Assembly: GCA_001972305.1 (NCBI GenBank)
Contig: BDDD01000022.1
Span: 527,590-591,589, forward strand
Direction: 5' to 3'
DNA: 64,000 nucleotides
DNA from: Cephalotus follicularis
Taxonomy: Eukaryota > Streptophyta > Magnoliopsida > Oxalidales > Cephalotaceae
Position numbers and translations under genes: made by a program
The notes under the pieces: generated by a model
What the model saw: the letters and a program-made list of their open reading frames with translations, nothing else
The model's database searches: none
What the model was told of the DNA's origin: nothing
In this document: positions 22,626 through 64,000 of the stretch, piece after piece
How the letters are laid out: each line of letters opens with the position of its first letter
Numbering within the stretch: position 1 is the first letter of the stretch

Positions 22626-22910
22626 GAGCTCTGGTTTGATGGATCATATACAGCAACAAGAGGAGGCGTAGGGATAATTCTTTATTCTCCATACAATGTT
22701 TCAACTCAATTAGATTATAAGTTGGATTTCTTCTGTTCCAATAGCGAAGCTGAATATGGGGCACTGATATTGGGAATGTTGTCAGCTATGGAAAAAGGCT
22801 CGAAATTGATTGCTGTAAAGGGGGACTCAAAGTTGATAATCAAACAAATGACTAGTGAATATGACAATAAGAACTTGCTATAGCAGAATATAGAAGTTTT
22901 GCTCAGGATT
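22626..22910 (+). pseudogene. Tat-1 second (archaeal-type) RNase H
   Basis: ELWFDGSYTATRGGVGIILYS, SEAEYGALILGML and VKGDSKLIIKQM carry the D-E-D layout of the extra RNase H domain that marks the Tat lineage. It lies between the first RNase H and integrase, as usual for the group. This domain is the main reason for the Tat assignment. Fossil. Confidence 0.85.
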
Positions 22911-25140
22911 TGACAAAAGAATTTTCAAAAATCACTTTTGAGCACGTAGCAAGAGCAGAGAATAAATATGCAGACGCCCTTGTAACAATGGCTTCAAAAG
23001 TAATAATGGAAAATCAAAATGAAGCATTGTTCACAATTAAAAAAAGAAAAGGGTGTGTAAAAGAAATCAAGATGAAGGAGAAGAATGAAGAAAAGTTGAA
23101 GATGATTGGAGAAATGTTAATTTAACGAAGTTACAAAACTCAATCAATGCTAATTCGAAGATGCTCAAAGAGTACATTATTATTAAGGGAGAACTGTATC
23201 ATAAAGAATCATAAGAGATTCTGGCAAAATGTGTCACAAATAAAGAAGCTGAGGTGAAACTGAAGGAAGTACATGAAGCAGTATGTGGAGTTGCTATAGC
23301 AGAATATAACATTAAGAACTTGATATATGGCATTAAGAACTTGCTATAGCAGAATATAGAAATGTTGCTCAGGATTTGACAAAAGAATTTTCAAAAATCA
23401 CTCTTGAGCACGTACCAAGAGCAGAGAATAAATATGCTGATGCCTATGTAACAACGGCTTCAAAAGTAATAATGGAAAATCAAAACGAAGAATTGTTCAC
23501 AATTAAAAGAAGAGAAGGGCGTGTAAAAGAAATCAAGATGAACGAGAAGAATGAAGAAAAAGTTGAATATGATTGGAGAAATGTTATTTTGACAAAGTTA
23601 CAAAGCCCAATCAGTGCTAATTTGAAGATGCTCAAAGAGTACATTATTATTAAGGGAGAACTGTATCATAAAGAAGCATATGAGATTCTGGCAAAATGTG
23701 TCACAAATAAAGAAGCTGAGGTGAAACTGAAAGAAGTACATGAAGCAGTGCGTGGAGTTGAAGGGACTGTATTATACAGAAGAATACAAAGATATGGATT
23801 TTATTGGCCAACAATGGTTAAAGATGCAGCTGATTTGCAAAAGGGTTGTGAGAAATGCAATCTAGTCCTAGATGCTGAAGAGGCATGCTTTGTTGATGTG
23901 CAAGGAGATTAGATACAATCTTATAAGAAATTCTTATTAAATGGAGTGTTGCCTGAAAACAAATAGAATGCAATAAAGATAAAAAAGAAGGCACAAAAAT
24001 ACTTCATACATGAAGGAGAATTGTTCAAAAGATTTATCATGGAAATTCTTTTAAGATGTATCAATAAAGAACAATCTCAAGAGGTGATGAGAGAAATGCA
24101 TACTGGAGCCTAGGTGAACATCAAGGAGCAAGAAAGTTATGTAAGTAGCTTGTGCATGTAGGGTATTATTGACCTACAATGGAGACAGATTCTTGGGAGT
24201 ATATGAAGAAATGTCATTTGTGTCAAGTGCATGAAAATTTGATACATACCCCAACAGTGCAATTGCATGCATTATCTACGTCTTTTCCATTTCATACATG
24301 GGCATTTGATTTGATTGGACCCAAGAATCCTCCAGCGAAAAGATATATGTAGATTATAACTCCAATAGAGTTATATACTAAATGGTTGGAAAAAAGGCGT
24401 TGAAAAAGGCGAATGGAAGTGCTATAATCATTTTTATAATGGAGAATATTATATGCAGATTTGGCATTCCAAAAAGGATACTATCAGATAATGGCACGCA
24501 TTTTGTTAACAATTTGTGAAAGACGTTATGGATACTTACCACATTAACCATATTAAATTCACGTCGTACTATCCACAAGGTAATGGTCAAGCAAAAGCAA
24601 TGAATAAGACTTTGCTAAGGATACTAATCAAGATGGTGCATAATTATCCAAGAGAATGGCCTGAGTTGCTCAATTTTGCATTATGGGCGTACATAATATC
24701 AAAGAGAAGTTCAACAAAAGTCACACCTTTCTTATTAGTATATGGGTCAGATGCATAACTACCAATTGAGGTCAAAGAGCCAGAAGCAAGAATGTTGTTA
24801 CATGCAGAAATTGGCAATGATGAGGCTAGGGCGCTTGATCTGGAAATGGTAGATGAAAAGAGAGATGCTACAAAGAAAATAATCATCAAAAGTACCTTAG
24901 CAATATCAAGAAAGCTTATGTAAAATATGTATGCCTCAGAGAATTTAATGAAGGAGATTTAGTATTCAAGGTTGATGATCAAGTAAGAAGGGAGCTGCCA
25001 ATGGACAAATTTGAAGCCAAATAGGAAGGACCATATATTGTCACTGCTATACATGACAATGGATATTGTATAATCAAATATGTAACCACAGACAAGGCGT
25101 TACCTCCCCTTCAATGTCAAATATGTAAAGAAGTACTATG
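22910..25140 (+). pseudogene. Tat-1 integrase region
   Basis: A linker rich in Lys/Glu leads to the zinc-binding domain, with GFYWPTMVKDAADLQKGCEK and a C-x2-C pair near 23850. The core domain holds FHTWAFDLIGPKNPP (near 24290), SDNGTHF (near 24490) and YYPQGNGQAKAMNKTLL (near 24560). The C-terminal part has the GDLVFKVDDQ-like strand. It is internally rearranged and broken in several places. In a working copy it would insert the cDNA. Confidence 0.82.
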
Positions 25141-41705: not shown

Positions 41706-43490
41706 ATGGTATCCACTAGCATGAATAATCAAACTAGAAACCATGACGATGTCTCCGAATTTAAGGTACCATTTTTTAGTGGTGATGATTTTTCCTATTG
41801 AAAGAGTCGTATGGAGATTTACCTTAAACTAGAGACTTCAAGAATTGGCTTAGTGTTAAAATGGTCCTCACATCCTTATGAAAATAAATGACAAAAATGA
41901 ATGCATTTCTAAAACCGAAATGAATGGGATGATGATGATTTCAAAAAATTGACCATACATAACAAATCCTTGAATATTTTGCTTGTTTCTTTGGATAAAG
42001 CTGAATATAATGTTGTTAGAAGATGCACCTCCGCACATGAAGTGTGGAAATTGCTCATTCTCACCCATGAAAGTACCGAGCAAGTTAAAAATGCCAAACT
42101 ATCTTTGCTAAATAGAGACTATGAGTTGTTTAAGATGTAACCAAACGAATCTATAAAAAATGTACATAATCGTTTACTTGATATTACTAATGCTCTTCTT
42201 GGCCTTGGTAAGGTTTTTGGCAAATATGAACTCGTTAGCAAAATTGCTTGGGTGCCTTAATGATGAATGGGAACCAAAGGTCATGGCAATTGAAGAATCA
42301 AAGGACCTAAAGGTTATGGAGATTGAAGAATTGCTTGGCTATCTCATGACCCATGAAGTGAAACTGAACAAGAAATCGACCAACCATGTGGAGAAAAAGC
42401 CTCACGAAGAAAGGAGGAAAGATATTTCTCTCAAAAGTACTCACAAAGAAGAAATCTCTAGTGACTAGGAGCTAGAAGAAGAAGAAGACTACGTCCTCTT
42501 TGCGAAACGATTCACAAAATTCGCAAAGATGAATAAAGCTAGACGATTTCTAAAGAAAAACCCCAACAAGGGAGAAGGAAGCAAGATGGATCTTCCTACT
42601 TGGTTTGAGTGTAACAAACCGGGACACATCAAGGTGGATTGTCCTCAATTGAAGAAGAAGAAGAAGCTCTTCAAGAAGAAAGCTCTCAAAGCATGGCACT
42701 TAAGTGATGATGACTCTTCCGATGATGAAGTCACCGAACAAGTTGTCAACCTTTGCTTCATGGCATCTAGTGACAACGAGGGGAGCGATAATGAGGTTGA
42801 CGATTGTTATACCTTTGGTGAATTACAATTTGCATTTGATGAATTTCTTATAGAATTTAAAAAGAAATGCTCTCAATACTCGTCACTTAAGAAAAATATG
42901 GCTAGCATTGAAAATGAGAAGGACTTGCTTGTTATTTAAAATGTGCAATTAAAAAGTGATCTTAGCCTTTTGAAAAATGATATTGCTAAAAAGGATGCTT
43001 GTGTTGCTAAACCTACTTCTTGTGACAATATTGATCTAGAAAAGGAAGTAGAAACTCTTAGAGAGAAAAATGTGAACCTAGAGAAATCCTTTAGCAAATT
43101 CACATTAGAGAGCATGAAATTAGATGAAATGCTTGCTATCCAAAGACCGTACCTTGATAAAACCGGTATAGGTTATGCTCCCTTAGAGGTTAAAACAAAA
43201 TTGAAGAACACTAAAATAAGACTTTATTGCACATATTGTCATAAGGTAGGACATGTTGTTGGTAAATGTTTTAAGAATATTTCTCATTATCATTCTCATG
43301 CTATACCTTCTCCACATCACAATGCTATTACATTTAGACAAATTTGGGTTCCTAAAGGAACTATAAAACAAAAATGTAACTTTAATGGACCCAATAAACA
43401 ATGGGTAACAAGATCAAAATCGTTTGACATTTTTGTAGGTGGAAAGATGTTTGCGAGAAAACCACAAGGAGGAAGAACCATGATACGTGG
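41706..43490 (+). pseudogene. SIRE-1 gag
   Basis: This SIRE-type Gag begins near 41706 and holds the copia capsid block (FKVPFFSGDDFSY, then the A-VRRCTSAHEVWKLL region near 42010). It continues through EWEPKVMAIEESKDL and a charged linker to a CCHC knuckle (CNKPGHIKVDC, about 42606-42640). A long Lys/Glu-rich, coiled-coil-prone tail (42820-43200) and a second knuckle-like CTYCHKVGHVVGKC (about 43231-43272) follow. Two knuckles and a long tail are usual for the SIRE group. Fossil, broken. Confidence 0.87.
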
Positions 43491-44749
43491 ATAGCGGTTG
43501 CTCAAAACATATGACGGGTGACAAAAGCCTCTTCCTTGAACTTAAAGAAATCGATGGAGGAAATGTCACATTTGGAGACAACAACAAAGCCAAGATTGTT
43601 GGTATTGGCTCAATAGGTAACGAATCGAATATTTTGATTGAAAATGTATCTTATGTTGTAGGCCTTAAGCATAATTTGCTTAGTGTTAGCCAATTGTGTG
43701 ATAAAGGATATAAAGTTAATTTTAAATCCTCTCTTTGTCACATTATTGACACTAGCACCAATGATATAAAGTTTGTTGGTCATAGGCAATGAAATGTGTA
43801 TGTTGTGTATTTAAAAGAAATGTCTTTCAAGAATGTTTGTTTTAATGTAAATATAAATGATAAATGGCTTTGGCATAGACGTTTGGGCCATGGTAGCATG
43901 GATGCTCTTGCAAAACTTTCAAGAAAAGATTTAGTCATTGGTTTGCCAAAAATGAAATTTGATAATGATAAATTTTGTGATGCTTGTGCACAAGGAAAAC
44001 AAACAAGAACTTCCTTTAAAGACAAAAATATTGTTACAACTACTAGAATTTTACAACTCTTGCACATTGACTTGTTTGGACCAATAAGAACTCTAAACAT
44101 TGGTGGTAAACAATATGACCTTGTTATTGTAGATGATTACTCTAGATTTACTTGGGTTATATTTTTAGCTTTAAAAAGTGATGCTTTAGATTCCTTCATT
44201 AAATTTGGTAGATTAATTCAAAATGAAAAGAGTCTATCTATTATAAGCATTCGTAGTGATCACGGAAAAGAATTTGAAAATCTTGGTTTTGAAAATTTTT
44301 GTGACGAACTTGGAATTCACCATAACTTTTCGGCTCCTAGAACCCCTCAACAAAATGGTGTTGTTGAAAAAAGGAATAGAACTCTAGAAGAAATGGGGAG
44401 AACCATGCTTTGTGAAAACAATTTACCTAAATATCTTTAGGTCGAAGCCGTGAATACCTCTTGCTATATAATAAATAGAGTAATGATTCATTCTATTTTA
44501 AAGAAAACCCCATATGAGCTTTTTAATGAAAGAAAACCAAATGTTAGTCATTTAAGACCATTTGGTTGCAAAGTTTTTATTTTGAACAATGGGAAAGATA
44601 ATCTTGGTAAATTCGATGCCAAGAGTGAAGAAGAAATATTTTTAGGCTACTCTTTAAATTCTAAAGCTTATAGAGTATTCAATAAGAGAACTTTAATTAT
44701 CAAAGAATCTATTCGTATCTTATTTGAAGAGTCTAATAGTGCTCCGTAA
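43480..44749 (+). pseudogene. SIRE-1 protease and integrase
   Basis: Protease: DSGCSKHMTGD at the start of the frame at 43487, with the D-S-G active-site motif and NLLSVSQLCDKGY further on. The pre-integrase zinc module follows, with WHRRLGHGSMDAL and CDACAQGK. The integrase core holds HIDLFGPI, VDDYSRFTWV, SDHGKEFEN and FSAPRTPQQNGVVEKRNRTL. A C-terminal KTPYELFNERKPNVSHLRPFG follows. Fossil; long stretches still open. Confidence 0.9.
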
Positions 44750-44999
44750 AAGGGAGATGATGTTGATGATGTAGGTATCATGGACCAATTGGAAGGCTTG
44801 GACATCTCCAAAGATGATGTTGAAATTGACAAAGTTTAAGAAGAAGGTGTACATGAAGAAGAACTCTAACAAACTCAAGTCACCTAGGAGCCCGTAGCAA
44901 GAAGAGAAAGAGAGTATGTTAAAGACAACAAGGTAATCGGTAACCCTACCGAAGGGGTAAGAACTCGTTTCTCTCTTAGGGAGTATTGCGATAATGTAG

Positions 45000-45746
45000 C
45001 TTTCATTTCTAATATCGAACCCAAAAATATTTTTGATGCTTTAAAAGATGATTTTTGGATTGTGGTCATGCAAGATGAACTAAACCAATTTGAAAAGAGT
45101 AATGTTTGGTCCTTAGTTCCTAGGCCTAAAAATCAATCCACCATTGGAACAAAATGGATTTTTTGAAACAAAATGGATGAAAATGGGTTGGTTATTAGAA
45201 ATAAAGCTAGATTAGTTGCACAATATTGTAGTCAAGAAGAAGGTATTGACTATGATGAGACCTTTGCTCCCGTAGCTAGATTAGAAGCAATTAGATTATT
45301 AATGGCCTTTGCATGCTTTAAGGTTTTAAATTGCATTAAATGGATGTTAAAAGTGCTTTTTTAAATGGCCTTATAAATGAGGAAGTTTATGTTGAACAAC
45401 CTCCGGATTTTGAAAACGTACACTTCCCTAATCATGTTTTTAAATTGTCAAAAGCTCTTTATGGCTTAAAACAAGCACCAAGAGCTTGGTATGAAAGACT
45501 TTCAAAATTTCTCTTGGAAAATGATTTTAAAAGAGGTTTAGTTGACAAAACTCTTTTTGTAAAAACCAAGCTTGATGACATTTTAATTATGCAAATCTAT
45601 GTTGACGATATTATTTTCGGTTCTACTAATGATTCTCTTTGCGTTGAGTTTTCTATCATTATGCAAGGTGAATTCGAGATGTGTATGATGGGTGAACTCA
45701 AGTACTTCCTTGGATTTCAAATTTCTCAAGGAAATGAAGGAACCTT
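45000..45746 (+). pseudogene. SIRE-1 reverse transcriptase, first part
   Basis: DDFWIVVMQDELNQFEKSN, then [71 protein letters not shown] and the catalytic block IYVDDIIFGSTN (near 45600). The frame is interrupted at 45747 by the inserted solo LTR, and the next residues resume at 50265. Fossil. Confidence 0.9.
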
Positions 45747-55711: not shown

Positions 55712-56428
55712 TATGAGGATCATATTCCTTTGATAGAGTTCTCTTACAATAATAGCTATCACTCCAGTATCGGCATGGCACCGTTTGAGGCACTGTATGG
55801 GAGGAAGTGCAGATCTCCTGTGTGTTGGGATGAGGTCGGAGAGCGACCTTTACTCGGGGCTGAGTTGGTGGAGGAAACTTCAGAGAAGATCAAGACGATC
55901 AAGAAGAAGCTGCTTGCTGCTCAGAGTCGGCAGAAGAGCTATACGAACAGTGTCAAGATGAGGCCTTTAACCTTCGGCGTGGGTGATCACGTGTTCTTGA
56001 AGGTATCATCGTGGAAGGGCGTGCAACGGTTTGGGAAGAAGGGCAAATTAGCTCCACGCTACATTGGTCCTTTTGAGATTTTGGAGAGAGTCGGGGAGGT
56101 AGCTTATCAGCTTGCCTTACCTCCTGCACTGTCGAACGTGCATGACGTCTTTCATATATCTATGCTGAGGAGGTATATCCCGGACCCGTCACATGTTCTG
56201 GACTATGATGCTATTCCGGTACAGGATGACCTGTCTTGTGAGGAGCTGCCTGTGCGGATTCTCAATCGGAAGACGCAGATCTTGAGGAACCGAACCATTT
56301 CCATGGTCAAGGTTCAGTGGCAGTTTCACAAACCTGACGAAGCAACTTGGGAGCGTGAGGAGGATGTCCGAGAACGCTACCCGCGTTTGTTTTTGACTTG
56401 CTGTAATTTCGAGGACGAAATTCCTTGA
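55712..56428 (+). pseudogene. Tekay-like integrase C-terminal half with chromodomain-like end
   Basis: About 235 codons: FSYNNSYHSSIGMAPFEALY with the last acidic residue of the catalytic triad region, then YGRKCRSPVCWDEVGE. The GPY/F module follows (GKLAPRYIGPFEILERVG, LPPALSNVHDVFHISML). At the end, VKVQWQFHKPDEATWERE resembles the chromodomain-type tail of Tekay/Del chromoviruses, which in working copies guides insertion to certain chromatin. Fossil fragment, no upstream catalytic part. Confidence 0.88.
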
Positions 56429-57486: not shown

Positions 57487-60351
57487 TAAAGGGTCTCGAA
57501 CATAAGTATATTAGTGACCCAAAGAAGCGTATCTTCCTTCATGGACTATCATCCCATACAAATCATATTCCAGGTTTCCAAAAATTGAACAATAAGGTGC
57601 CATATCCAAAAACAAAGGAAAACTTATGCAGCCTCTGATCTTATTCTTTGGAGAAATGAATCTTTTCAATTGAATAATTAAGAATAAAGATACATCCTTC
57701 AACAAAGTCTGGTTTCTTGCAGTGATCCTTGAACCGCAATAATTACACGATACATCTGATATTTCTTCAATTCTGGTTTAGAAAGAAAGTGCGTCGGTCA
57801 AGGTTCTCTCTTCAGTAATACCCAAGGATAAGACATAACAAGGTTCAAATTGTGCTGAGGTTTATTGGAAAACCAGGCAAGAAAGAGAATGAGTAACAAA
57901 ACTTTGGAAGAAGGACTTTGCAGGATTTATAATTTGGTCCAGTTTGCAAATCGAGGAGATAATGACATCATTAAACTTCATCTCTAAAAAGTCTAATAAT
58001 CCTAAAATAAATTCATGGGCATCTTCTTGTTTAAAAGGAACAAAAGAAGAAGAAAAAAAAAGTTATGCGTTGAATGAATTTATGTACAAGTAAGGCTTTG
58101 GTAGTATAATTGACCAAGGACATAAAAAGGTTGTCCAAGGTGTAAATAATGCAAAAACCAACAGTATAAGATTCTTAAGGCTTGCAATGTTTGCACTCAT
58201 ACATGAAAGGTTTTGAGGAAATGGGGCATTGAAGAATAGGATTGATATAGCAATTGTTCTTATAATTATGGAGGCGTAAGAAGAAGCCTTCTGGAATTTG
58301 GGCTATCTTAATAAGGCATTCACCACCAGAATAAGCATCTTCCTTAGGGTTTCTTGGATAAACATTTTTGGAGAAGACATGCTCCAACCCAGCAAGGAGA
58401 GTTTCAATTGATTCTTCTGCATCAGATGTTGTTGGAACTTGAGGGATCTTGATAATGTTCCTGATAGGAATTTCGTCTTCTTCGTCATTATCATCACCAT
58501 CATTAGCAGGAAGGCTCTCTTTTTTATGCTCGTTGATTTAATAGGTTTCTTCCTCTCCCCAATAGTAATATTAGCATATAAGGGAGGTGCAATGATAGAA
58601 GGTGAAGCAACAAAAGAAGTACTTTGCTTTAGAGGATGAGGCACAGCTTCTTCATCAAAGGTGTATGAAAAGACACCAAGAGATGTAGGCAGATTCTTCT
58701 CTTTAATTTCTGCATGCCTCCTCTCAGCAGGCAAACTTCTGCATTAAGATAAGCAGAAATTATTTGTATCCGGATGGACGAGTTGAGGAGAACTAGTGAG
58801 AAACTATTGAAAGACCTTCTTCTGCTTTAACCAGTAGGTATGCCACAACTTTGAAATTCTACCTTGATTGGAGAAATGAGGTGCATTCAAAGAAGAAGAA
58901 GAAGATTGCATCAGAGATGTGTTTAAGTCCTTTGAGAAAAAAGCATATACAGTGTCAAATTTGGGACTCTAAACATTATTAACTACAACTCCTTGATCAT
59001 AGCCAATTGTCTTGAAAATGATGAGAAGAGTAAATCACAGTAGAATACTTCAAAGAATATGTGCTTGAGAAAGAATTTGTGATGCATGGTAAAAATATTA
59101 AGGAAACCCAATGGTAGAAAGGGCGTGCTATCTTCAAATCAGATTTTTTTCATTCTTCTAAAGTTCCAGACTGAGCCCAGTTCATGGTGATAAAGGCGTA
59201 GATTTTCTGGAGAGGAAGTATCATGAGTGTAAGGACGAAAATCAAATTCAGATTCTTCGTCCAAAAAATCCATCAAATTAGTTTGAGGCTTTGGCATGTA
59301 TCTTAGCCATTCTCTAAAGGCTACTTCGCTATTTACCACCTTAGGAGCGTAATCTCTGTAGTGATCCCACAAGAATAACTGAAGGGTTGTAGTATCAACA
59401 AAACACAGCACAACATTGCACCTTAGGGAAGCCTCCATACTCTTTTTATACAGGTCAAGACGCTTGTATAAAGAACCCACAAATAAAGGAGCTACAGGTA
59501 ACCTTTCAACTTTGGCAATCTTGATAGCCAACAAAAAGAAGCCTTTGTTCACCCCATCAACAGGAAGCCCTGAGAACACATATCTGGAAAGCAAAAAAGA
59601 AATAAATGCAGCAAGATTCAGTTCAGGATTATAACCCTTACCCTTCTCAAAATCTGGAGAACCATTCTTCTCATCATTAGGGATGCCAAAATTATATTTA
59701 ATCCAACTGCTCAAAGTGGCTCTAGCGCTTCCAACATTAGAGACTTTAAGGGAACTAGTCAAAGCTACAACCATTTCCTTTTCTTCAGAAGAGCCAACCA
59801 GTGATTGAACAATTGCATTACCAAACAAGGGAAGGTGGAATTGAGCAACAGTGTCTGCAAGAGAATAGGAGATTTCTCTGAAAGAAGTAAAGAAAGTGTG
59901 GGTTTGAGAGGACCACCTGGCTAAGAAATTCTGGAGACCCTTTTTGTCTCGAGCAACATAGAGGTGCTGAGAGACACGTATAGCATTATAAACTCCAGTT
60001 TCTTAAAGAAAAGCAACATTCTCTTTATCACTTAAAACATGTTTCACCAATGTTTTCCATCCTACTGAAGGTTGACTGAAGGATTAGAATTCCATAAAAG
60101 ACATAGGGTAATCATCGTGTGCCCAGCGAAAACCCAAGATGGAGGAGGGTTGAACTTCATAGCCTTTCTCCGATTCATATTCTTGACCCAAAAAGAGAGT
60201 TTCCCTGAATAAGTGCAGAAGGCAAAGAGCGTTTGTTTCAGAAATCATTAGTTTCGATATTAAACCATTGAGACCAATATTCTGAAGAAATAATAGGAGA
60301 GTCTTTTGAAGTCTTGGAAGTTTTAGATGGAGATTTTGTTTTTGGAGCCAT
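57487..60351 (-). pseudogene. Tat-1 antisense extra ORF with plant mobile domain
   Basis: The minus strand begins ATGGCTCC at 60351 (MAPKTKSPSKTSKTSK, a Lys/Ser/Thr-rich tail). From 59828 to 59139 it reads open for 229 codons: NLAAFISFLLSRYVFSG, KGFFLLAIKIAKVERL, APLFVGSLYKRLDLY, CFVDTTTLQLFLWDHYRDYAP. This matches the plant mobile domain (aminotransferase-like/PMD family) known from antisense ORFs of Tat elements and from host silencing factors such as MAIN. The remainder to 57487 is decayed. Several breaks. The start lies ~160 bases from the 3' LTR, facing away from it. Confidence 0.7.
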
Positions 60352-61218: not shown

Positions 61219-61660
61219 CAATAGGTCACAATATATCATGTCTCTTCATAAAGACCCTAATCCGTATTTTTATATCGAGTTAAAGTCAAGTTGACGAGTC
61301 GCGGATCAATTTTGTTACCTCTAGATATTATTATATCTCCTTGATGTATTGATTCATTCAATGATCAAGGACTATATGTTAGTTAACATTAGTTAAACTG
61401 TTAAACTTATTAAATACCAATAATGCCCTTACTTATGCATTGTTTTTACTTTTTTTATTTTTTATAAATCCCTCTAACAACCCATGAATGCATTAGAAAT
61501 AAACTTTCTAATAACCTATGCCATTTTATCTAAGGTATGCATTTTTTTTTTGTGATTTAATTTCTATATTTAAGTGAGAGTATTTCAATATTTTTCAAAG
61601 TTTTGTTAACAGTGTTACTCCATGAACGTTTTGTAATTTCTAAAAAATATAAGGATACAA
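61219..61660. other. AT-rich spacer, nothing recognised
   Basis: No coding similarity, repeats or element ends seen. Confidence 0.6.
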
Positions 61661-61662
61661 GG

Positions 61663-62163
61663 TGTTGATGTCAAAATCAACACCAATACATTCCCTTACG
61701 TGGAAGGGTATGATTTGTAGAGGGAAATGAACTGAATACTCTGATAATGGTTTTCGAATGGTGTTTGATAGTCCTCCATGCACACACAAAGTAAACTAAA
61801 TGAAGAACCAGAAGGTATTACTCCCAGGGACTCTCCGATGCTTAAGTCAGTAATGGCAGAGAAGACGACAATATAGGTTCTTTTAGTCTAGAATTGACCG
61901 ACCTGTGTAATGTGTTTGATTGTGGTATTTATAGTGGTGCCTGGTATGCAACTGTCTTGCTTGACTTACGAATATGATTATTGTACCCCTAGGAAACGGC
62001 CAAGAATCTTGCACATTTCCTTATTTGGCGCTCAACCGTTACTGATCGTTATCTTTTCAGATTATCAAATATCCGACCACGCGTCTGTAGCTCTAGAGGA
62101 CACTTGTCTTACTTTTCCAGATGACACATGGTTATTTACTTGGGTAGAGTTTTTCCCATATCA
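61663..62163 (-). mobile_element. Tat-2 3' LTR (probable)
   Basis: Read on the minus strand, a purine tract GACCAGGGGGGCATA (62178-62164) is followed by TGATATGGGAAAAAC at 62163. A TG...CA end (GACATCAACA) lies at 61663. The inner end is a perfect 9-bp inverted repeat (GGTGTTGAT/ATCAACACC, 61661-61684). Location and strand relative to the extra ORF at 62706 repeat the Tat-1 plan. Only one LTR is in view. Confidence 0.5.
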
Positions 62164-62705
62164 TATGCCCCCCTGGTCTTCATTTTCTGGACTTGGGAGA
62201 GGAGGAAGACCATTAGAGGTCTGTCTCGGCTCTGAACAGGGCTTTAGTGCGTAACTAAGCCTGTTTTGGTCTTTGGGCCTTGCTATTTGGCCTATTTTTG
62301 GTATTAATTTTGATGCGGTAGAGAAAGCTCCATTTCCTTTTATGTCTTTTCACTTGCCGCGCATAGCCTCTTCATTTCCCGCACCTGATCTGATGGCCTG
62401 ATCTCAACCGCTTAGCCTAGCGGAGATTGTATGGTCTGAAATCAATCTTGAATCCTTTAAGTTGCCCTTTTCTTCTTGGGGAAGCTTCTTTGCCTTCATG
62501 TTCATCTAATTCTGAAAGCTTTTTGCTCTCTTGAATCTCTCAATCTCCCCAAACTTCAAAACAAATTTCCTTCAATTCCCCTTCGTGAAAATCTTTGGTG
62601 AGCCTTTTTTTACTCTGTTTGTTTTTAAAAAATTGTTTGAGCATCTTTAGGGTTTTTCTCAGCCTCTTATCTCCCTCTCTCTCTCCTCTTAGCAAGAAAC
62701 TCCAA
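62164..62705. other. Leader of the Tat-2 extra ORF
   Basis: Non-coding. It ends in a pyrimidine-rich stretch, CTCCCTCTCTCTCTCCTCTTAG, like a 3' splice site or a CT-rich plant leader, then CAAGAAACTCCAA before the ATG. Confidence 0.55.
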
Positions 62706-63545
62706 ATGGCTAGGACTAAGCAAACCGCTAGACAAGTTACCAATCCAAATATGGTGCGCCGCCTGGTGGGAGAGATAATTGTTGCCAAGCGTCCTCTTGG
62801 TGCCGAAGAGGATATGGATGTCGCCGTTGCCGGCACTCCAGATGTTACTTCTGCCGAGGCTGGGGCCCAAGTTTTTAGGACCTACTTTGATAGGAGTATA
62901 ATCTACCATGAAAAAGTGAAGAAGCTGGCAAAGGAGTATTGCTTCCCGAGGGGCTTGGAGTTCTCGCTCCCCCGAGATCCCAAGGAAACTACAAAGAGTA
63001 GACCTGGTCTCTTCATAGTTTTCGAGGATGCTCTGACGCACGGCCTAAGACTCTGGATTCCCTCCTTCGCCATTGCTATTCTGAGGCACTTCCAAATTCA
63101 CCCTTCTCTGTTCCAGGCGCAATCTTGGGCCTTCATCATGGGTTTTTTGGTGAAGTGTTTGGAGATCAAAGCGACAGCTACATTGGGTCTTTTCAAGGAA
63201 TTCCATTCTCTGGTTGTTTCTCCTGGCAAGCGCGAGTACTATTTCAAGTCTCGCACTAGTCTGACCAAGAAGTTGCTAGTGGAGCCTACGAAGTCCATCA
63301 AAGGTTGGAGAGGGAGGTATTTCCTTGTCAAGAATCTCCCCAGGTTCACCCTCTGTCAGTGGTGTGATACCTTGGATGTTTCACTCCTCAATCAGAGGCC
63401 AGTGCTGTTTGTAGCCGAGAAGGCCGACCTGGCCAAGCTCTCTGCTCTGGAGCCAAAGGGGGTGAATCATACCGTATGGGAGGATCATCTTTGCCGAGTC
63501 GAGCTAAGCATGTCCTCTGGTCAGCGAGATCTCTTGGATGATTAG
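62706..63545 (+). CDS. Tat-2 extra ORF: histone H3-like N-terminus plus Transposase_28-like domain
   Basis: A 279-codon frame. The start is the first ATG in this frame (CCAAATGGC, good plant context); the frame is open further upstream but without another ATG. Residues 1-10 are MARTKQTARQ; after Met removal the first eight residues equal histone H3 (A1-R8), with Q in place of K9. Residues ~45-240 resemble the putative gypsy-type transposon domain (Transposase_28/PF04195): GLFIVFEDALTHGLRLWIPS, ILRHFQIHPSLFQAQSWAFI, GFLVKCLEIKATATLGLFKE, KGWRGRYFLVKNLP. Antisense ORFs of Tat elements are known to carry such domains. Position and strand relative to the probable LTR at 61663-62163 support an antisense ORF of Tat-2. 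Function unknown; the mimic role is inference. Confidence 0.75.
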   Translation: MARTKQTARQVTNPNMVRRLVGEIIVAKRPLGAEEDMDVAVAGTPDVTSAEAGAQVFRTYFDRSIIYHEKVKKLAKEYCFPRGLEFSLPRDPKETTKSRPGLFIVFEDALTHGLRLWIPSFAIAILRHFQIHPSLFQAQSWAFIMGFLVKCLEIKATATLGLFKEFHSLVVSPGKREYYFKSRTSLTKKLLVEPTKSIKGWRGRYFLVKNLPRFTLCQWCDTLDVSLLNQRPVLFVAEKADLAKLSALEPKGVNHTVWEDHLCRVELSMSSGQRDLLDD

Positions 63546-64000
63546 GAGGAGATTCCGGTCAAGATAGAGAGTGAAAGGGTTGAAAACATCCCAGAAGAAC
63601 CTGATGCTCGGCCTGTGACCGAAGGGGAAAGCTGTATTAAGCCTTCGTCTCCACCACCGCTAACTTCATTATTTCTTTTGGTCAATCACTATTTCTGCTA
63701 TGCTTTTTACTCTGTTTTTTGTGGCTCTCTGTAGCAATGGGTTCTCGGAGAGATGTGGCTGACATCCTGAGGGTTAGCAAGGAGAAGAGAACGTAGGCGG
63801 CCGCCGACGATGCAAGGCCGAGGGACTTGAGTGAAATTGCTACGGGGGGCAAGAAAAGGTCTGATGCTACCATAGCTTCCAAGAAGAAGTCTGATCACGG
63901 CAAAAGGCCTGCGGGTGAGCTTCCTCCTACTGCTCTTCCTACTCCTCCAACTAAGAAACACAAAGGAGGGAAAGGAGGAGAGAGCTCTTCCCGCGACCGA
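63546..64000 (+). pseudogene. Continuation of Tat-2 extra ORF region to window end
   Basis: The coding character continues: an acidic stretch (63546-63660), then a T/C-rich interval ending TCTCTGTAG that looks like an intron end near 63735. A basic Lys/Ser/Pro-rich tail (KKHKGGKGGESSSRDR at the window edge) follows. Such tails follow the Transposase_28 domain in related ORFs. It shows at least one break. The element runs out of the window. Confidence 0.5.

Follow-up and report, generated by a model that had tools for sequence, protein, structure and literature searches.

A selected, histone H3-tail-like motif at the start of a TRP28 protein family of Retand-like retrotransposons in Cephalotus follicularis

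Retand/Tat LTR retrotransposons are described as carrying antisense open reading frames (ORFs) that lie downstream of pol, before the 3' LTR, and encode proteins with a TRP28 domain (PF04195); such proteins were found in 97% of the surveyed clusters of recently active Retand elements, are predicted to bind DNA, are said to be restricted to flowering plants and have no known function (PMC11963269). The ORF analysed here resembles them in its PF04195 domain, its position beside a probable LTR and its predicted DNA binding. A histone-like N-terminus, however, is not described in the part of that survey available to us (PMC11963269), whereas here such a start is under selection and occurs in two families of one genome. 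H3-resembling tails are known from other DNA-binding proteins: SNAIL1 and GFI1 have an N-terminal SNAG domain that looks like the H3 tail and through which LSD1, an H3K4 demethylase, is recruited (PMC7649360). The start of the Retand protein in our copy differs from SNAG in matching H3 A1-R8 letter for letter, in being part of a mobile element and in having a putative partner only. Likewise, the oncohistone mimic EZHIP is a non-histone protein with a histone-like stretch that acts on a histone enzyme, but it acts like H3 K27M (PMC6513997), whereas the Retand motif corresponds to the H3K4 end. Histone mimicry and TRP28 ORFs each are already known; it is their union that is new. Among the matches listed for the open-licence literature, there was no report of an ARTKQTAR-type retrotransposon peptide, nor of histone mimicry in connection with retrotransposons, transposable elements or LSD1. 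VANDALs, plant elements that encode the anti-silencing VANC proteins, are DNA transposons and not LTR elements, and we know of no histone-like tail in VANC proteins. As in the present case, the protein is encoded by plant mobile DNA; VANC proteins counter silencing in a sequence-specific manner (PMC5735166, PMC10398659).

The window, by which we mean the whole analysed stretch of 64,000 nucleotides from C. follicularis, contains the ORF in question close to its right end, with the following features:

62706..63545, plus strand: ORF with a TRP28 domain (Transposase_28) in a Retand-like element; 279 aa, the coordinates including the stop codon
62709..62732, plus strand: codons 2-9, which read ARTKQTAR as do A1-R8 of histone H3; conserved among the 139 copies of the genome and under purifying selection
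62733..62735, plus strand: codon 10, Q at the place of H3K9 (from the residue tally of the copies)
62736..62774, plus strand: codons 11-23, the fast-changing stretch directly after the motif, used as control region (residue tally, branch counts)
63015..63212, plus strand: PF04195 Transposase_28 match (Pfam), residues 104-169
63543..63545, plus strand: TAG at a position where the relatives P0001 and P0002 read on (comparison with both)
63737..63796, plus strand: downstream ATG (63737), by eye loosely like the continuation in P0008, stopped by a TAG at 63794-63796

From the ATG at 62706, the ORF opens with MARTKQTARQVTNPN, and the TAG at 63543-63545 closes the frame; upstream of 62706, the same frame is open to at least 62595, with no ATG between these two positions. 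An earlier, sequence-only reading of this DNA had stated that the frame begins with MARTKQTARQ, so that residues 2-9 equal H3 A1-R8 and residue 10 places a Q where H3 has K9, and that the remainder looks like the Transposase_28 type. Both statements were confirmed, the latter by a Pfam match to PF04195 (E 5.2e-6) at 27 bits, just above the cut-off of 26.2. We take the ORF to encode the TRP28 protein, of the antisense type, that belongs to a family of Retand-like LTR retrotransposons. PF04195 is the only Pfam match at E up to 1, and no histone fold was found in the ORF after the tail. Calculated from the ORF's own composition, the chance of an ARTKQTAR match is about 2.6e-10 per place, in agreement with the earlier claim that a chance match is very unlikely, and none of the other 8-column windows of the ORF has more than 3/8 plurality residues matching ARTKQTAR. 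A plain sequence search does not register the H3 likeness as significant: with the first 43 residues as query, the PDB returned an H3 chain at E=1 only, ranked fourth behind three non-histone chains. The window copy itself looks decayed, as judged by the TAG at 63543, where P0001 and P0002 continue. All 11 named homologs in the protein collection are TRP28 proteins of C. follicularis; they are annotated from later Met codons and therefore do not display the start. P0001 is 81% identical to genome copy L135, P0011 is about 91% identical to copies L141 and L144 of the sister family discussed below, and among the best two matches per protein none matched a genome copy at 100%. With residues 1-60 as a protein query, none of 16 candidates matched at E up to 10, and no relatives were found in the viral contigs and genome contigs searched.

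The host genome (1.58 Gb, 9746 contigs) yielded 139 scored copies including the window's own, selected from 14629 first-look candidates; this number is a lower bound, and all copies belong to this one genome. The Retand-type TRP28 ORF hence constitutes a multi-copy family in a flowering plant. Since pairwise identity in codons 11-279 ranges from 0.56 to 1.00 (median 0.69), the copies are not a burst of near-identical sequences. For the residue tally, copies whose local alignments ended short of residue 1 had their start placed without gaps. M1 is present in 124 of the 139 copies. Residues 2, 3, 5, 6, 7 and 9, corresponding to A1, R2, K4, Q5, T6 and R8 of H3, are A in 112, R in 116, K in 134 (and never R), Q in 132, T in 128 and R in 126 copies, respectively. 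Place 3 of H3 (residue 4) is variable, with T in 74 and V in 52 copies (V or I together in 57), and so is place 7 (residue 8), with A in 68, S in 31 and T in 20; the H3K9 place (residue 10) is occupied by Q in 101, Y in 11 and K in 7 copies, and from residue 11 on, the sequence changes rapidly. Compared with ARTKQTAR, 18 copies match in 8/8 residues, 61 in 7/8, 36 in 6/8, 18 in 5/8 and 6 in fewer, and KQT together with R8 is kept in 112. K5 is level with K196 at the top of the lysine columns in conservation, the columns counted being column 5 and 16 lysine-major ones within codons 11-279. The first residues therefore are conserved in the sister copies as well, and K9 indeed is rarely offered, as had been proposed. 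The notion of an exact N-terminal match to H3 stands in part: R2, K4, Q5, T6 and R8 are held family-wide, but no more than 17 of the 139 copies read MARTKQTAR without a change, with places 3 and 7 varying.

Looking back to a stop or over 80 codons, the motif ATG is the first in-frame ATG in 116 of the 124 copies that possess it, and an earlier one is present in 8; an in-frame stop lies within 40 codons upstream in 114 of the 139 copies. On these counts the start codon is real for the window family, and a spurious upstream ATG was rejected for it. Residue 2 is A, V, T or S in all 124 ATG copies, and before such small residues removal of Met is expected, so that the removal assumed earlier for the Ala of the window copy extends to the family; its H3-like residues stand at the extreme N-terminus behind a presumably removable Met. 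In four copies (L031, L042, L048, L112), an in-frame ATG is found 11 codons ahead of the motif ATG, so that one subgroup may carry a short extension. The 5' leader contains one further feature:

62596..62603, plus strand: splice-donor-like TG/GTGAGC, preceding the ATG by about 107 nt, from a leader alignment of 22 of the 139 copies

GGTGAG occurs between -160 and -61 in 82 of the 139 copies versus none of 138 for a stretch taken as control. In 114 of 139, an AG is present among the 20 nt directly preceding the ATG, a figure without control. A 5' UTR intron in the window family is possible. By eye, GGTGAG is also visible in the sister family.

Selection on the motif was estimated across the 139 copies by the method of Nei and Gojobori, which gave a pN/pS of 0.16 for codons 3, 5, 6, 7 and 9, of 0.40 for codons 2-9, of 0.72 for codons 11-20 and of 0.22 for the TRP28 domain. 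On a parsimony tree of 136 copies (L023, L045 and L120 were left out as near-duplicates), nonsynonymous and synonymous changes on internal branches numbered 4:26 in the core codons, 20:41 in codons 2-9, 106:60 in codons 11-23 and 142:337 in TRP28. Tip branches showed 49:46 plus 5 stops in the core and 239:96 plus 9 stops in codons 11-23, as is expected of copies decaying after insertion. R2, K4, Q5, T6 and R8 are under purifying selection. The N-terminal motif, small-R-[T/V/I]-K-Q-T-x-R-Q, is thus selected and stands at the start codon in the window family. It should also be noted that, taken as an 8-codon window, it is only middling in conservation, ranking 146 of 271 by pN and 166 of 271 by pN/pS (every second copy used).

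A search of the genome with PF04195 gave 150 matches, and none in 14 control genomes. The upstream pieces of 32 of these matches, hand-picked, were read, in one group of 12 in which long open frames predominated and another of 20 that came largely from the top of the list. Ten of the 12 pieces in the first group (L141-L147, L150-L152) contain [AT]R[TI]KQT[KR]R at the homologous place; the two exceptions are L148, a member of the sister family without the motif, and L149, which belongs to a different family. The absence of the core in L148 is apparently due to a deletion. By pattern and by eye, the motif is absent from the 20 other TRP28 pieces, many of which are decayed and hence weaker evidence. 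The core motif is therefore found in two families and is absent from the other TRP28 copies read. In the 10 sister copies, a conserved upstream ATG and a 14-residue Ser-rich leader precede the motif, and at this ATG the minor-allele frequency drops from 0.28-0.30 to 0.05-0.07. Because ATG and leader come before it, the motif of the sister family probably is internal, at about residue 15, unless scanning bypasses the first ATG; if the first ATG is used, its H3-like residues are not at the extreme N-terminus. The leader was also considered as an intron, which is not favoured, given that conservation begins at the upstream ATG and that, on visual inspection, not all of the 10 copies have an AG before the second ATG; the third-position excess inside the leader is slight (0.071 versus 0.050 and 0.057), so that a coding leader is no more than probable. 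With the motif probably internal in the sister family, a free N-terminus is neither universal nor needed.

What such a motif might do is suggested by its resemblance to the H3 tail. Our preferred reading, to which we give about even odds, is that this short H3K4-tail-like sequence imitates the tail and engages H3-tail-binding proteins. Under our proposal, removal of the first Met would leave a free Ala-Arg-Thr/Val-Lys tail, and TRP28, as a predicted DNA binder, would keep the protein attached to the element. In this position the tail would be free to engage proteins recognising H3 through R2, K4, Q5, T6 and R8, the likeliest partners being H3K4 erasers of the LDL1/LDL2 or JMJ14 type, or H3K4 readers or writers. 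We infer that the held places (R2, K4, Q5, T6, R8) as opposed to the drifting ones (1, 3 and 7) describe this putative binder. A free N-terminus is read by PHD fingers and LSD1-type enzymes, whereas pockets of the WDR5 type, which mainly need R2, tolerate internal sites, and demethylases of the JMJ14 type rely on R2 and Q5; as the motif probably is internal in the sister family, a partner of the WDR5 or JMJ14 type would be favoured. Occupancy of an eraser or recruitment of a reader could let H3K4 methylation persist at the element and weaken RNA-directed DNA methylation (RdDM), and the imitation, lacking K9 in most copies, would be unable to carry the silencing mark. In Arabidopsis, JMJ14 and LDL1/2 were reported to cooperate in the maintenance of RdDM, their loss leading to increased H3K4 methylation where DNA methylation decreases (PMC3820799), and targeted H3K4me3 was reported to erase DNA methylation via DNA demethylases (PMC11842272). 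However, transcriptional de-repression was reported not to be general at the RdDM targets with raised H3K4 methylation (PMC3820799), which weakens the final step of the proposed mechanism. The full scenario, in which the protein of this Retand clade docks on element DNA and presents a tail readable, methylatable or demethylatable at K4 and mostly unmarkable at K9, as a decoy keeping the chromatin active against RdDM, is put forward tentatively and we rather doubt it in its entirety. A conserved H3-like start in one clade provides a concrete candidate function for TRP28, in which a plant LTR retrotransposon would counter silencing by imitating a histone tail. Should the peptide bind erasers or readers of H3K4, mobile DNA would have a new way of dealing with the chromatin control of its host.

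Counting against the H3-tail reading are the internal motif of the sister family, the drift at places 3 and 7, the middling rank of the motif window and the 20 TRP28 pieces without the motif. A serious competitor, to which we assign an appreciable if less than even probability, holds that the sequence is a conserved motif of this Retand clade that serves a different purpose, such as nuclear import, contact with RNA or DNA, or binding of another partner. It originally would have been internal, as MARTKQTKR behind a Ser-rich leader, and would have become N-terminal after loss of the upstream ATG in the window family, its likeness to H3 being coincidental. The sister family, with its internal motif and with K or R at place 7 versus mostly A, S or T (119/139) in the window family, speaks for such a history, as do, by eye, a pyrimidine-rich leader before the window-family ATG in the place of the sister Ser-rich leader, and Ser-rich starts in some other TRP28 copies. 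A plain basic patch, however, would not need a K4 place that never is R in 139 copies, nor the retention of Q5 and T6, and the low chance of a match per place argues in the same direction.

Past capture of the start of a host H3 gene by the element, with the first eight codons as its remnant, would explain the exact identity to H3 A1-R8, but we consider it improbable: past residue 9 there is no H3-like run (H3 continues with STGGKAPRKQ, of which only T12 and R18 agree with the commonest residue), and in the sister family the motif lies within the ORF, preceded by the Ser-rich leader, and its place 7 is K or R. A recent one-off fusion of the window copy with a host H3 gene is rejected, as the start is common to the family of 139 copies.

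Conservation of the stretch as a DNA or RNA element, serving splicing or translation start instead of the protein, is very improbable in our view. Its support comes from the donor-like site upstream in 82 of the copies and from codon usage, codon 6 being CAA in 131, codon 9 AGA in 116 and codon 10 CAA in 99 of 139. It is disfavoured by synonymous diversity, as pS in codons 2-9 (0.45) is close to that of codons 11-279 (0.50), and between the window copy and L141 of the sister family six codons of the motif differ synonymously, ARTKQT and R8 being shared. The motif is a selected protein sequence.

Regarding the element to which the ORF belongs, a probable LTR adjoins it:

61662..62156, minus strand: probable LTR adjoining the ORF, its left edge placed where several alignments begin and its right edge and strand judged by eye

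Among seven copies with 1500 bases upstream, the alignments to L003, L004, L005 and L008 begin at 61660-61663 and those to L002 and L006 further in, L007 being absent among the matches listed. We take the coding sense of the LTR and the element to be the minus strand, judging by LTR motifs. The antisense layout of TRP28 ORFs in Retand elements (PMC11963269) points to the same sense. On visual inspection, copia-like coding and no Retand pol were seen in the 9.9 kb of L140 that extend rightwards from the ORF; the copia-like coding at L140:3412-5313, beside the truncated Retand copy, is 86% identical to window positions 43387-45288. Further features lie to the left of the ORF within the window. 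At 59139-59828 on the minus strand lies an ORF with a plant mobile domain (PF10536, E 2.5e-14), which is part of another repeat or gene. Positions 55730-56428 encode the C-terminal part of an integrase with a Tf2-1-like SH3 and a chromodomain match below the cut-off, and probably derive from a chromovirus-type element. Finally, a direct duplication with a spacing of 466-467 bp and 93-94% identity occupies 22859-23760, by eye apparently within another retroelement.
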